A DNA stretch of 37,767 bases from Vermiphilus sp. (GCA_020722805.1 DYKA01000006.1:1-37767); one strand, 5' to 3'; positions 13,303-18,741 are shown, counted from the stretch's first letter. Notes: generated by a model from the letters alone, not told the origin. Made by a program: numbers and translations.

Positions 13303-15267
13303 ATGAAACGTTTGCTCATCAGTACAGTCATATGCCTCCTTATTTTTTGCACGCATTCTTTTCCGAAGGTTTTTCATGACCTTCCCCAGCCAGGATTTGG
13401 TTTCAAAACTTTTTTCTGCACGTGGGGCGGTACAGACAGCCCTGAATTTAAGAAATTTCTGACAGTTGCCAGACCCGAGGTTGTTCAGGTCGGATTCTAC
13501 GGACCTATGTTTCATGGTTATGCCGACAATCCTCTGTCAACCGGTTATCCGATGCAGATACCTGTTTCTGGTCAGCACAGGGCACTTGCAGTTCAGAGGC
13601 GCATCAACGACATGATTCACTCTCTGGGATTAAAGGTTATCGGTCATTTTCAAATGGTCAATGTCATAATAAACGATACACACAAAGATGACTTTTTTGA
13701 TTTTTATGAAAACCACTGGCCTGCTGATTTGCTCGGTCCAAAGCCTGTATCTGACATCAACCAGCTGCTTCAAAGGGATTCAGATGGAAATGTGATAATA
13801 AAAAAGCATTATGTTGATTATGTCGGACTGTGTCTTTCAAGTCCCTATACAAGAAAAATGTTGAAGAACATGCTTCGGCTTGCCATAAGAACCGGACTTG
13901 ACGGAATAATTACAAACTATAATTATTACTGGTCATGCAGCTGTCCTTACTGTCAGGAATCATTCAGGAAATTTCTTAAAAAGAAATACTCTGACTATCA
14001 GCTGAAAAAAAAGTTCGGCATAGACGATATAAGAACATATAGATTTAAGAAGATCAATGCAGAAATTCCGGGATATCCATCTGAAGAAGCAAATCCTCTT
14101 GACTATGAGGCAATGGAATGGGCAGCGGTTTCTTTTAAGAATGCGTATGACGAAATTATTGTGAACTATGGCAGGTTACTCAAGCCAGACCTGATTGTTG
14201 CGACCTGGAATCATATCGGTAATATGGGCATAACTGAGGAAAGAATATTTCTTCCCAAAAAATTGTGGGGCAGGGGAGAGAACTATTTCTGGTACAGCGG
14301 TGGATATGGACCCACTGACATAAAGCATAATAAATTGGGAGATGGCTGGCTCAATTGCCTTTATATAAGAGAAATGTCAGGCGGAAAGCCGTTTGTGCTC
14401 GGTAAATATGAGGCGGTAAGAATAAGAAACAGTATTGCAGAGGGGCTGGCAACAGGCGGGAGTGGAATGGGACTTTACATAAATATCAGGAATCCGGATG
14501 GCTTTAGCTTTGCTTCAAGATACATGGATTTTGTTCATAAGAACAAAGGTCTGTATTCTGTTGACAGACCCTTCGCAGAGGTGGGACTTGTTTTCCCGCG
14601 GATGTCAATCAAATCTGGATACAGCCAGTGCATGGATTCTTTCAGGAAGATTGGCGAGTATCTGGCGCAAAGACATGTTTTCTTTGATGTTATCTGCGAC
14701 GAGAATATAACCGGCAAGAGGATATCCCGGTACAGGGTGATTATATGTCCTGAAATATATATACTTGGCGACCCACAGGCAGAACTGTTGGCTGGATTTG
14801 TGAAAAAAGGTGGAACTGTATGTTTTGTTGGCAGGAACACGGCAAGCATCATACGCGGAAGCAGTACTCCTGCAGTTATTGAAGCAGGAAAGAATACTGA
14901 TGTTATACAGGCCGCAATTGAGAAGGTTGTAGGTGATTTGAGTGCAATAAGTGCACCTTCAACCATAAGGATTTCCGGCTTCCACAACAACAGCAAGAGA
15001 ATAGTTGTTCATGTTGTGAATTACAACAGGGATGAAGAAAAAGGTAAGAAAATGTCAGGTCCTTCTGATGAGTGTCCTGTTGTGGAAAAAAATATAAGGG
15101 TGAAACTAAAGGTTAGTGAAACCGCAAGGAGTGCCAGAATAACATTTTTTTCTCCGGATAATGCGAAAGAACAATCACTTACATACACCATTACCAATGG
15201 ATTTCTGGAAACATCTATTCCTGAAGTACTTGTTTACGGTATTCTTGATATCTCTATCGGAAACTGA
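13303..15267 (+). CDS. Secreted glycoside-hydrolase-like protein with GATase-like domain
   Basis: A 654-residue protein with an N-terminal signal peptide (MKRLLISTVICLLIFC...). Residues about 30-400 look like a TIM-barrel of the GH42/GH-A kind seen in many environmental genomes, including a TNYNYYWSCSCPYCQESFRK segment with a CxCxxC cluster and the following FLKKKYSDYQLKKKFG. Residues about 425-525 (VGLVFPRMS, YRVIICPEIYIL, FVKKGGTVCFVGR) resemble the beta-galactosidase trimerisation, glutamine-amidotransferase-like domain. The C-terminal 120 residues look like a beta-sandwich. No CAZy family can be assigned by eye, and the substrate is unknown. GGAGG is only 3 bases from the ATG, a short spacing. 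Confidence 0.7.
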   Translation: MKRLLISTVICLLIFCTHSFPKVFHDLPQPGFGFKTFFCTWGGTDSPEFKKFLTVARPEVVQVGFYGPMFHGYADNPLSTGYPMQIPVSGQHRALAVQRRINDMIHSLGLKVIGHFQMVNVIINDTHKDDFFDFYENHWPADLLGPKPVSDINQLLQRDSDGNVIIKKHYVDYVGLCLSSPYTRKMLKNMLRLAIRTGLDGIITNYNYYWSCSCPYCQESFRKFLKKKYSDYQLKKKFGIDDIRTYRFKKINAEIPGYPSEEANPLDYEAMEWAAVSFKNAYDEIIVNYGRLLKPDLIVATWNHIGNMGITEERIFLPKKLWGRGENYFWYSGGYGPTDIKHNKLGDGWLNCLYIREMSGGKPFVLGKYEAVRIRNSIAEGLATGGSGMGLYINIRNPDGFSFASRYMDFVHKNKGLYSVDRPFAEVGLVFPRMSIKSGYSQCMDSFRKIGEYLAQRHVFFDVICDENITGKRISRYRVIICPEIYILGDPQAELLAGFVKKGGTVCFVGRNTASIIRGSSTPAVIEAGKNTDVIQAAIEKVVGDLSAISAPSTIRISGFHNNSKRIVVHVVNYNRDEEKGKKMSGPSDECPVVEKNIRVKLKVSETARSARITFFSPDNAKEQSLTYTITNGFLETSIPEVLVYGILDISIGN

Positions 15268-15644: not shown

Positions 15645-16541
15645 ATGGATAGAAAAGAGTTTCTGAAAAAGAGCATGGCTGCGAGCCTTGGGTTGTTTCT
15701 TGCAAAATACTCAAAAATGTTTCCTTCGCTTTCTGCTGAGGCACAGGCATCACAACCAGTGATTTATGTTTCTAAAGATAAATCTCCAGCTGAGATGGTT
15801 TCATCCGTGATAAAAGCTATGGGCGGAATCGGGAAATTTGTCAGGAAGGGCTCAAAGGTTGTTATAAAACCAAACATTGCCTGGAACAGGACCCCTGAAC
15901 AGGCGGCAAATACTAATCCAGATGTTGTGGCAGCACTGGTCAGGATGTGTCTTAGCGCAGGTGCTTCATCTATTGTGGTTACTGATGTTTCTTGCAATCC
16001 ATGGCAGGTTACCTGTGTCGCCAGCGGCATAAAGGAGGCAGTTGAGAAATCTGGCGGCACAATTAAGAGTCCATCCAGATTCAGGAAGGTTACGATACCT
16101 TCAGGTCTTGTTTTGAAAGAAGCAGAAGTCCTTGAGGACATTCTTGATGCGGATGCTGTTATCAATGTTCCTGTTGTAAAGGTTCATGGTTCTCAGGCAA
16201 AGGTGACAATATCAATGAAAAATTTGATGGGTATAGTAAGAGACAGGGGATACTTTCACAGAACAGACTTGAATCAGTGCATCGCAGACATTTCTTCTTT
16301 TCTGAAACCTGCACTGATAGTTGTTGACGCAACAAGAATTCTTCTTACCAACGGTCCTCAGGGTCCTGGCCTGGTTAAAGAGACAAAAACAGTTTTTGCG
16401 GGTACTGATTTTGTCGCACTTGACGCTTTTGGCGCAACGTTTCTTGGAGTAAAACCTGCTGATGTCAGACACATTCAGATAGCAGGAAAGATGGGGCTTG
16501 GTCAACCAGATCTTTCAAAGGTAATCATAAAGTATGTTTAA
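15645..16541 (+). CDS. DUF362 protein with an R-K variant Tat-type signal
   Basis: The 298-residue protein has the DUF362 pattern: VVIKPNIAWNRTPEQAANTN, a central AGASSIVVTDVS, DADAVINVPVVKVHG, VTISMKNLMGIV and a C-terminal VFAGTDFVALDAFGATFLG. DUF362 proteins often accompany iron-sulfur proteins; the reaction is unknown. The N-terminus MDRKEFLKKSMAASLGLFLA has the layout of a Tat signal (polar, FLK, hydrophobic stretch), but the twin arginine is Arg3-Lys4. Good ribosome binding site (AAGGAGGG). The gene overlaps the next one by 8 bases and is the first of five coding for ferredoxins and Tat components, which supports export of the folded protein. Confidence 0.85.
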   Translation: MDRKEFLKKSMAASLGLFLAKYSKMFPSLSAEAQASQPVIYVSKDKSPAEMVSSVIKAMGGIGKFVRKGSKVVIKPNIAWNRTPEQAANTNPDVVAALVRMCLSAGASSIVVTDVSCNPWQVTCVASGIKEAVEKSGGTIKSPSRFRKVTIPSGLVLKEAEVLEDILDADAVINVPVVKVHGSQAKVTISMKNLMGIVRDRGYFHRTDLNQCIADISSFLKPALIVVDATRILLTNGPQGPGLVKETKTVFAGTDFVALDAFGATFLGVKPADVRHIQIAGKMGLGQPDLSKVIIKYV

Positions 16542-17205
16542 GATTAGATTGAAGAAACCGGTTCTAAACAGTGTAGCAAGAAAAATTTTCGTTAGAAGAA
16601 TTAGCCAGGCAGCAAGTATATTCTTTTTCTTCTTTCTTTTCAAAAGGGCAGCTGTTTTTCCTGTGTCTGATAAACTTCCCCTCAGCATATATTTTAAGAT
16701 GGATGGTCTTCTTGCTGTTGCAATGTCCATCATATCAAAGTCATTTTCTTTGCTCTTTCCTGCGATTTTTTTGTTGTTTCTGATCATGCTTTCTGGAAAC
16801 TTTTTCTGCTCATGGCTATGTCCTTTCGGTGGTATCATTGATTATATTTGTGCTCTATCATTTAGAAAATACTGGAAAATTTCGCCTGCGATCAAAGGCT
16901 TATTCAGAAGCATGAGACCTTGGACTTTAGTTTTTGTATTGACCTCTGCTGTGCTTGCAGGCTTTTCTTATTATCCTTTTCTGGGTTTTGTTTTTGATCC
17001 GTTTGTGATTATGAATGGTGCTTTTATTGGTTTGAAGATATGGCTTGTTTTTTTTGCTGTTATTTTAATGGCAAGCATTTTGAAACCAAGATTATGGTGT
17101 TATTGTTTGTGTCCCCTGGGATGGTTTTATACTCTTGTGGGAACAAAATTGCGCATAAGGAAAATCATCAATTTTTCAAGGGAGAAAGTTTTTAAGATAC
17201 GCTGA
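16534..17205 (+). CDS. NapH-like polytopic membrane protein with two CX3CP motifs
   Basis: The 223-residue integral membrane protein shows about five hydrophobic segments (near 28-38, 70-92, 122-140, 150-160, 168-185). Two CX3CP motifs, CSWLCPFGG after the second segment and CYCLCPLGWF near the C-terminus, are the mark of the NapH/RnfB-linked 4Fe-4S membrane family (PF12801 type). The classical C-terminal ferredoxin domain of NapH is absent, and ferredoxin clusters are supplied instead by the next gene. It probably passes electrons from the quinone pool or cytoplasm to the periplasmic ferredoxin. Its stop TGA shares a base with the next ATG. Confidence 0.8.
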   Translation: MFKIRLKKPVLNSVARKIFVRRISQAASIFFFFFLFKRAAVFPVSDKLPLSIYFKMDGLLAVAMSIISKSFSLLFPAIFLLFLIMLSGNFFCSWLCPFGGIIDYICALSFRKYWKISPAIKGLFRSMRPWTLVFVLTSAVLAGFSYYPFLGFVFDPFVIMNGAFIGLKIWLVFFAVILMASILKPRLWCYCLCPLGWFYTLVGTKLRIRKIINFSREKVFKIR

Positions 17206-17792
17206 TGAATAGAAAGGAATTTATTCTTTCAATATCTGCTGTGCTTTTTGCTGCTATGTGGCCTGGTTTTTTGTTGCGGAGTGCAAGAAGGATATCAATC
17301 ATCAGACCACCTGGCTCTGTGGAAGAAACTCTGTTTTCGCAGTTCTGTATCAGGTGTGGTCAGTGCATGAAAATATGTCCTGCCCATTGCCTGAAGCCGG
17401 TAAGAATTGAAAGGTCAATAAGGGATTGGGCAACACCAGAAATAATTCCAAGACAGGCCGGCTGCATCCGCTGTCAGAGTTGTTCAAAGGTTTGCCCTAC
17501 AGGCGCCATAAGAAAAGTTGAGAATGAAAAAATAAAGATGGGCACAGCGCACATAAACAGAAAAGAATGCCTTGTCTGGACACATCAGAAGGAGTGTCTT
17601 ATTTGCCTTGAATTCTGTCCTGTGCAGGCAATATACAAAGACGAGAATGGAAGGCCAGTTGTTAATCCAGTATTGTGTGTAGGTTGCGGTTTGTGCGAGC
17701 AAAACTGTCCTGTGACCACTGAAGAAGCAGCCATAAGGGTGAGTCCATCTGGAGAGAGAAGATTCCGTATAAAAGAAAATAAATACTGCTGA
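17205..17792 (+). CDS. NapG/MauM-like ferredoxin with four [4Fe-4S] motifs and R-K signal
   Basis: A 195-residue polyferredoxin. Four cysteine motifs follow in order: CIRCGQCMKICP, CIRCQSCSKVCP, an extended CLVWTHQKECLICLEFCP and CVGCGLCEQNCP, which is the NapG arrangement. The N-terminus MNRKEFILSISAVLFAAMW looks like a Tat signal, again with Arg3-Lys4 in place of R-R. Cofactor-loaded ferredoxins must be exported folded, so Tat export is expected. It starts in a TGATG overlap with the NapH-like gene and precedes tatA by 23 bases. Likely a periplasmic electron carrier; the terminal acceptor is not encoded in the window. Confidence 0.85.
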   Translation: MNRKEFILSISAVLFAAMWPGFLLRSARRISIIRPPGSVEETLFSQFCIRCGQCMKICPAHCLKPVRIERSIRDWATPEIIPRQAGCIRCQSCSKVCPTGAIRKVENEKIKMGTAHINRKECLVWTHQKECLICLEFCPVQAIYKDENGRPVVNPVLCVGCGLCEQNCPVTTEEAAIRVSPSGERRFRIKENKYC

Positions 17793-17815
17793 AAATTCTT
17801 AACAGAGGAGGTTTG

Positions 17816-18001
17816 ATGAATCTTGGAGCGCAGGAACTTATATTGATTGGCTTGATTGTTTTGCTTTTATTTGGAGCAAGAAGATTACCAGAGATTGGAA
17901 GGGCATTCGGGAAAGCGCTGGCTGAGTTCAAAAAAGGAATGAAGGAGGTTGAGAAAAGCGCAGAAACAGAAGAAAAACCTGACAAATCAGAAGAAAAATG
18001 A
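17816..18001 (+). CDS. tatA: Sec-independent translocase subunit TatA/TatE
   Basis: A 61-residue protein with one N-terminal transmembrane helix (QELILIGLIVLLLFGARRL), the FGARRLPEIGRAFGKAL hinge and amphipathic helix, and an acidic, charged tail (EKSAETEEKPDKSEEK). This is the TatA family core. ATG 17816 is chosen over an in-frame TTG at 17813 because AGGAGG at 17806-17811 is better spaced for it. The stop overlaps the tatC start by ATGA. No separate TatB is visible, so this may be a minimal TatA-TatC system. Confidence 0.93.
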   Translation: MNLGAQELILIGLIVLLLFGARRLPEIGRAFGKALAEFKKGMKEVEKSAETEEKPDKSEEK

Positions 18002-18741
18002 AGAAAACAGTCACTGATGGTTCGTTCCTTGACCATCTTGAAGAGCTGAGACAAAGAATTCTTTTGATTCTACTCTGGTTTTTTGTTGCATCCTGCCTTG
18101 TTTATGTATTTAAGAATCAATTACTTAAGGTCATTTTGCAGCCACTCGGCGGACTTCAGGAAAAGATTGTGTTTGTTTCTCCTGTTGAGCCATTTTTTTC
18201 AGTAATAAAGGTTTCACTTTTCTGCGGATTCCTGCTTTCGTTTCCATTTATGCTTTACCAACTGTATCTATTTGTAAAACCGGCACTTAAACCTACGCAA
18301 GCAAAAGTTATGCTCTGGTCAACAGTAGCCAGTCAGGTTCTTTTTTATGCTGGTGCTTTGTTTGCTCATTTCTTTATAGTGCCGGCAGGCCTGAGGATTC
18401 TCTTTAGCTTTGGCACAGGTTTGATGCAACCAATGATAACAATAGGTTATTATCTTTCATTCCTTATGTGGATGATTATGGGAATCAGTATTGTTTTTCA
18501 GGTTCCTGTTGTTATGACGTTCCTTGTAATCTCTGAAATTTTAAGCCTTGAGGCACTTGCAAGAATCAGAAAGCCTGTGATTGTGGGGAGTTTTGTTGTC
18601 GCCGCACTTATTACACCGACAACTGACATGATAACACAGATTATTATTGCAGGCATAATGGTGGTTCTTTATGAGATTACAATCTTAATTCTTAGAATCA
18701 TTTATAAATATAAATTACTGATAAAAGATAACTTGTATTAA
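17998..18741 (+). CDS. tatC: Twin-arginine translocase subunit TatC with an altered signal-binding site
   Basis: TatC is the six-helix receptor for Tat signal peptides. The 247-residue protein keeps FLDHLEELRQR with Glu16 (E. coli Glu15), the QPL Pro (Pro48 in E. coli), LYQLYLFVKPAL (Phe94), a PxxF-type periplasmic loop, and TPTTDMITQ with the conserved Asp. The second Glu that contacts the twin arginines (E. coli Glu103, in FxxPxLxxxE) is Gln101 here: VKPALKPTQAK. The codon is CAA at 18298-18300. The protein is otherwise well conserved, so decay is unlikely. Its cotranscribed substrates carry R-K signals, which suggests a matched change. Last gene of the operon. Confidence 0.93.
   Translation: MKKTVTDGSFLDHLEELRQRILLILLWFFVASCLVYVFKNQLLKVILQPLGGLQEKIVFVSPVEPFFSVIKVSLFCGFLLSFPFMLYQLYLFVKPALKPTQAKVMLWSTVASQVLFYAGALFAHFFIVPAGLRILFSFGTGLMQPMITIGYYLSFLMWMIMGISIVFQVPVVMTFLVISEILSLEALARIRKPVIVGSFVVAALITPTTDMITQIIIAGIMVVLYEITILILRIIYKYKLLIKDNLY

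Follow-up and report, generated by a model that had tools for sequence, protein, structure and literature searches.

The window, by which we mean the whole 37,767-nucleotide stretch of Vermiphilus sp. DNA that was analysed, carries a five-gene operon that appears to encode a minimal, dedicated twin-arginine translocation (Tat) system in which the contact between TatC and the second arginine of the signal has been lost on both sides, such that recognition would be left to the remaining half of the binding site. Judging from comparisons of sequences, we place the probability of this reading at roughly 0.6. The dedicated set would comprise one TatA, one TatC and two substrates encoded in the operon, a DUF362 protein and a NapG-like ferredoxin.

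All five genes lie on the plus strand. The first (15645-16541) encodes the DUF362 protein (Pfam PF04015, E=2e-49), a putative Tat substrate whose ATG is preceded by AAGGAGG and whose signal reads MDRKEFLKK. It is followed by a NapH-like membrane ferredoxin (16534-17205) that matches Fer4_5, falls below the cut-offs of the NapH/MauN models and is likely a quinol dehydrogenase partner. The second putative substrate (17205-17792, ATG at 17205, signal MNRKEFILS) is a NapG-like multi-[4Fe-4S] ferredoxin that is recognized by Fer4 models and matches NapG (PRK09476) at E=8e-25, which is below the cut-off. TatA (17816-18001; TatA_B_E, E=3e-19) is read from an ATG at 17816, just 3' of a TTG at 17813 and downstream of GAGGAGG, and TatC occupies 17998-18741 (Pfam TatC, E=5e-56). 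Given that the NapH-like frame overlaps both of its neighbours (by 8 bases and 1 base), that tatA and tatC overlap by 4 bases, and that the single gap, of 23 bases, precedes tatA, the arrangement suggests one transcription unit. Upstream of the operon, at 13303-15267, is a gene for a 654-residue protein with a weak, below-cut-off match to a beta-galactosidase trimerisation domain, and such a protein is also found upstream in genome G004. The genome itself is a metagenome-assembled genome (MAG) of 1.79 Mb in 182 contigs, 92% complete, with one TatC and one TatA/B-family protein; the latter is the TatA, and no TatB was found in this genome. The bacteria of this lineage are uncultured; all genomes compared here are MAGs, and gene absences are accordingly provisional.

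The TatC of the window is a full-length member of its family, scoring 190 bits against PF00902 (cut-off 25.1) and 179 bits against NCBIfam TIGR00945 (cut-off 132.7) and matching the solved TatC structures 4B4A, 4HTS and 9DZZ. Its alignment with the E. coli protein is gapless from F94 to E103 (FIAPALYKHE in E. coli, FVKPALKPTQ in the window), and thus Gln101, encoded by CAA at 18298-18300, occupies the position of E. coli Glu103, as the first-pass annotation had proposed. The E. coli sequence served as reference; its length of 258 residues and the Glu at positions 15 and 103 were checked. Also in agreement with that annotation, Glu16 (18043-18045), the equivalent of E. coli Glu15, is kept, and residues H12, E15, R17, F94, P97 and L99 (E. 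coli numbering, which is used hereafter) are retained in all six TatCs of the genus. Position 103 is Glu in 118 of 118 TatCs outside the groups that lack it. Among the 24 columns that are at least 93% conserved in those 118 proteins, changes throughout the genus are confined to E103 and P221, and on this sequence pattern we judge the E103 change to be a specific loss and not decay. By family, the system is still a TatAC translocase, without one feature that is usually taken as invariant.

The position of this change can be placed on a known structure. In a 2026 cryo-EM study of E. coli TatBC in complex with the substrate MdoD, the first arginine of the signal contacts E15 via a water molecule and stacks under F94, and the second is salt-bridged to E103, lies against Y100 and also faces the lipid head groups (PMC13323110). 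E103A served as the binding-negative control in that study (PMC13323110), and E103A, E103G and E103K severely impair E. coli Tat (PMC13323110 among other sources). Given this geometry, the window has changed both partners of one contact, that between the second arginine and E103, and neither partner of the contact between E15 and the first arginine.

The signals carry the other side of the change. Both candidate substrates start with M-x-R-K-E-F (MDRKEF for the DUF362 protein at 15645, MNRKEF for the NapG-like protein at 17205), and no in-frame R-R is present just upstream of either start, which bears out the earlier observation of Lys in place of the second Arg. The two consecutive arginines of the canonical S/T-R-R-x-F-L-K signal are therefore absent from both, and each retains the Arg-x-x-Phe-Leu/Ile frame followed by a moderately hydrophobic h-region.

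The first-pass annotation had named ordinary R-R signals elsewhere in the genome, with no second tatC, as evidence against a joint change. None were found in the parts of the genome searched, which has one TatC and one TatA. A genome-wide search for M-x-R-[R/K]-x-F yielded no further credible Tat substrate; the other matches inspected proved to be short frames arising by chance or a membrane protein resembling a sensor kinase. At E<=10, TIGR01409 detected no Tat signal in this genome, but the model is insensitive here, since most R-R signals in the sister genomes escape it as well. Signals with longer N-regions were sought by a scan for R-[R/K]-x-[hydrophobic] plus an h-region, which covered 479 kb (about 27% of the genome) and revealed no convincing R-R substrate; the scan needs an Arg in the pair and a Phe, and unusual signals are missed. 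Matches to MERRKF or MERKKF within the order were considered as a third conserved substrate and were rejected as chance short frames or unrelated proteins.

Receptor and signals have changed together across the genus. Six of the eight species sampled have the Tat system, with one TatA/B match each, and in the other two (G005 and G007) TatC, TatA and DUF362 are missing jointly. Position 103 is Gln in five of the Tat-bearing congeners and His in the sixth (G006), and the DUF362 and NapG signals of these six are R-K in 12 of 12 cases; the pairing of Q/H103 with R-K thus holds in every Tat-bearing congener, and covariation of Gln with R-K signals in related genomes is what the first-pass annotation had named as support. 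The codons vary silently among congeners (AAA or AAG for Lys, AGA or AGG for the first Arg), which indicates that both residues were held while synonymous change occurred. Among sister families from the order and class, those with the same five-gene operon have E103 wherever the operon TatC is readable, and 18 of 19 of their signals are R-R, including those of all nine DUF362 orthologues. The lone exception is the NapG of G014 (MKRKEF), which has R-K together with E103 and stands beside an R-R DUF362 protein. Relatives with Glu and R-K had also been named beforehand as evidence against a joint change, and this one case is such a relative in part. R-K is hence found in 12 of 12 signals within the genus and 1 of 19 outside it (Fisher 9e-8, kinship ignored), and the co-change in the lineage of the window is a single evolutionary event.

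A second type of TatC, in which residue 103 is Thr or Phe, is accompanied by a TatA and resides in nuo clusters (G008, G009) or rnf clusters (G022, G027), at loci L038 (7894-8641), L039, L047 (1243-2011) and L050 (2557-3319). These proteins group with Omnitrophota TatCs on the tree. No obvious Tat substrate is encoded near them in the four genomes, and they are therefore uninformative on covariation.

The loss of a residue that is key to binding in E. coli could also mean that the R-K proteins no longer use Tat, relying instead on Sec export or membrane anchoring, and that TatC is drifting, its signal site no longer under selection. The h-regions of NapG signals are indeed slightly more hydrophobic in the genus than in the sister families (2.24 versus 1.89, p=0.03), but those of the DUF362 signals show no rise, and for the same reasons (no difference in one protein, a small one in the other) we rejected hydrophobic compensation for the lost contact. 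The several [4Fe-4S] clusters of NapG-like proteins have to be in place before export, and this speaks against departure from Tat. Furthermore, every other binding residue of TatC is kept, and within the genus TatA and TatC occur exactly in the genomes that have DUF362. We consequently regard an exit from the pathway as improbable.

A second phylum offers comparable cases. The first was a TatC of Candidatus Omnitrophota (L114) with Tyr103, which adjoins one radical SAM protein whose signal reads ITRKEFFKK and a second whose signal reads ISRRIFLKK. From a phylum-wide search of 384 genomes, 80 loci were fetched; E103 is lacking in 41 of the 81 Omnitrophota TatCs examined and present in 40, a proportion that is not a phylum-wide estimate, given that the loci were picked by similarity to the L114 TatC. 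The replacements are Q, F, K, T, H, V, Y, L, M, S, A, G and W. All 41 proteins lacking E103 keep H12, L13, E15, R17, P48, P85, F94, P97, G121, P131, F169, P172, P209 and D211, and 37 of the 40 genomes that carry such a TatC have no other.

Genes that adjoin these tatC genes on the same strand frequently encode proteins with altered signals. R-K is found on DUF362 proteins in seven genomes (G398, G474, G540, G553, G595, G678 and G520), on radical SAM proteins in two (G489 and G586) and on a molybdoenzyme in one (G472), and DUF362 proteins carry R-G in G602, G453 and G704 and R-I in G318. Beside other TatCs that lack E103 the signal is still R-R, on radical SAM proteins (G662, G645, G410), DUF362 proteins (G394, G441) and others (G516, G451, G447, G471). 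No convincing case was seen among the Omnitrophota loci in which the first Arg is lost and the second kept.

Several of the neighbouring genes merit mention in their own right. DUF362 proteins with Tat-like signals lie beside TatC at L259, L274, L285, L304, L239, L353, L358 and L368, and the recurring adjacency in Omnitrophota and in the lineage of the window is a hint of a conserved partnership between Tat and DUF362. Radical SAM proteins with apparent Tat signals stand beside tatC at L231 (2874-4034, minus strand), L232 (4721-5875) and L247; to our knowledge, exported radical SAM proteins would be unusual. Locus L248 (268-3669) encodes a molybdopterin oxidoreductase of 1134 residues with the signal ISRKKFLK, and the only TatC of its genome (G472) has Val103.

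Across the loci assembled, signals are other than R-R at 20 of those without E103 and R-R at nine, as against 0 and 14, respectively, where E103 is present (Fisher 1e-5, with tips that are related). For DUF362 proteins alone, 17 of 19 are not R-R without E103 and nine of nine are R-R with it; for the G022 operon in this count, the contig does not extend to the TatC. A TatC tree computed with the loop left out shows four changes at residue 103 and six at the second Arg, the latter all within clades that lack E103. However, only two independent pairs differ at position 103, and although both are concordant, a sign test on two pairs cannot reach significance. The case rests on structural specificity and recurrence, and not on phylogenetic statistics. 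Moreover, the coupling between E103 and the second Arg is not strict, because R-R is kept at 9 of the 29 loci without E103 and R-K occurs with E103 in G014.

This looseness also bears on whether the two changes coincided by chance, an ordinary Tat system tolerating a mild Arg-to-Lys change in a lineage where E103Q arose independently. A single Arg-to-Lys change merely slows export in most bacteria (PMC6708511), the G014 NapG protein is a natural example, and the genus amounts to only one event. Against coincidence stand the contrast between signals inside and outside the genus and its recurrence in an unrelated phylum within the same DUF362 family. Of the explanations weighed, we consider chance the least probable.

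An acidic residue elsewhere in the loop was examined as a predictor of which loci retain R-R. Asp or Glu is found at TatC position 100 in 26 of 50 proteins without E103 and in 2 of 130 with it (L231-L310), as though the acidic residue had shifted by one turn. Among the first loci, R-R was kept in six of nine with an acid at position 100 and in none of 16 without one, but a prediction written beforehand failed on 20 new loci, and the rule was rejected. Four of the new loci lack both E103 and the acid and have a signal; three of these are R-R (G394, G441, G471) and one fits the rule (G704). Phe103 and His103 seem to accompany R-R more often than do Gln, Lys, Gly or Ser, a post hoc pattern that is clustered on the tree.

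The proposal that receptor and signals co-changed into a Tat variant that reads R-K is sustained in its first part, by Q/H103 with R-K in the genus, E103 with R-R in the sister families and the second phylum. Its second part, specific reading of R-K, is not supported: Omnitrophota TatCs without E103 have neighbours whose second residue is K, G or I or has stayed R, and Lys103 is found with R-K. A switched code, in which Gln103 or His103 recognizes Lys and rejects R-R signals, would account for the Lys in every genus signal even though AAA is a single step from AGA and the second Arg never came back, and Q103 is paired with R-K in Omnitrophota too (G398, G540, G553, G586). Nevertheless, R-K also occurs with His103 in the congener G006 and with Lys103, Phe103, Val103 and Tyr103 in Omnitrophota, where R-G accompanies Gly103, Lys103 and Ser103. 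A contact of Lys with Lys cannot be specific recognition, and the uniform Lys of the genus may reflect shared ancestry. Although we rate a switched code ahead of both departure from Tat and coincidence, we think it unlikely. The losses to K, G and I, the persistence of R-R in some lineages without E103 and the pairing of Lys103 with R-K together make relaxation of the second position the better fit to these sequences.

TtrB of tetrathionate reductase lacks the first Arg of its signal and is served by an ordinary TatC. It is reported to be the sole known native K-R cargo (PMC6708511) and resembles the window signals in missing one arginine, whereas the latter miss the second Arg, and the matching residue of the receptor is gone as well. 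TatAC translocases such as TatAdCd of Bacillus subtilis with its dedicated substrate PhoD are alike in having one TatA-type protein, one TatC and substrates encoded adjacently, but differ in that the TatC of the window lineage has Gln or His for E103 and both substrates have R-K for R-R. The E. coli and Nitratifactor TatBC complexes with signal peptide (PDB 9E01 and 9E04; PMC13323110) share the TatC family, the alignment and residues E15, F94 and H12, whereas the window TatC could not form the salt bridge to the second Arg, and no TatB was found with it. Laboratory E103 mutants and their signal suppressors (PMC3712464, PMC5539426) establish that hydrophobicity can rescue Tat without E103 or the Arg pair; the change in the window is instead natural, fixed and clade-wide, and its DUF362 signals are no more hydrophobic. 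A literature search returned no relevant paper on TatC in Omnitrophota, on DUF362 proteins with Tat or on TatC E103Q.

With the second-arginine contact given up, recognition would most likely depend on the first Arg, through Glu15 and stacking under Phe94, on the motif Phe in a pocket with His12, on the h-region and, in the case of the Lys, on membrane lipids. Signals of sufficient hydrophobicity can bypass both E103 and the Arg pair in E. coli, where the contact is not mechanistically essential (PMC5539426), and this makes a Tat system that relies on the first-Arg half plausible. Because few substrates are encoded, and these beside their receptor, both sides could have changed together. We infer that the DUF362 and NapG-like proteins are exported by the TatAC of the window, that the system functions with that contact gone, and that E103 was lost first, after which the second position of the signal came under weaker selection for Arg and Lys went to fixation.

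More broadly, the sequences suggest, with odds that we judge a little better than even, that one-arginine Tat systems exist in nature. Repeatedly, in this candidate lineage and widely in Omnitrophota, receptor and substrates would have shed the two partners of one salt bridge, that between E103 and the second Arg, with the first-Arg half intact and the second half dispensable. TatC E103 is regarded as almost invariant and essential, to the point that a published co-evolution analysis dropped every TatC without it from its alignment (PMC5201420); a filter of this kind would discard these clades, and their substrates would go undetected by signal predictors that insist on R-R. If the reading is correct, these lineages are natural experiments on the twin-arginine motif, in which what each arginine contributes could be told apart in functioning systems; they also suggest that co-change of receptor and signal is feasible when Tat serves few substrates. 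On this candidate reading, living systems appear able to do without one half of a textbook recognition code that was supposed to be invariant.
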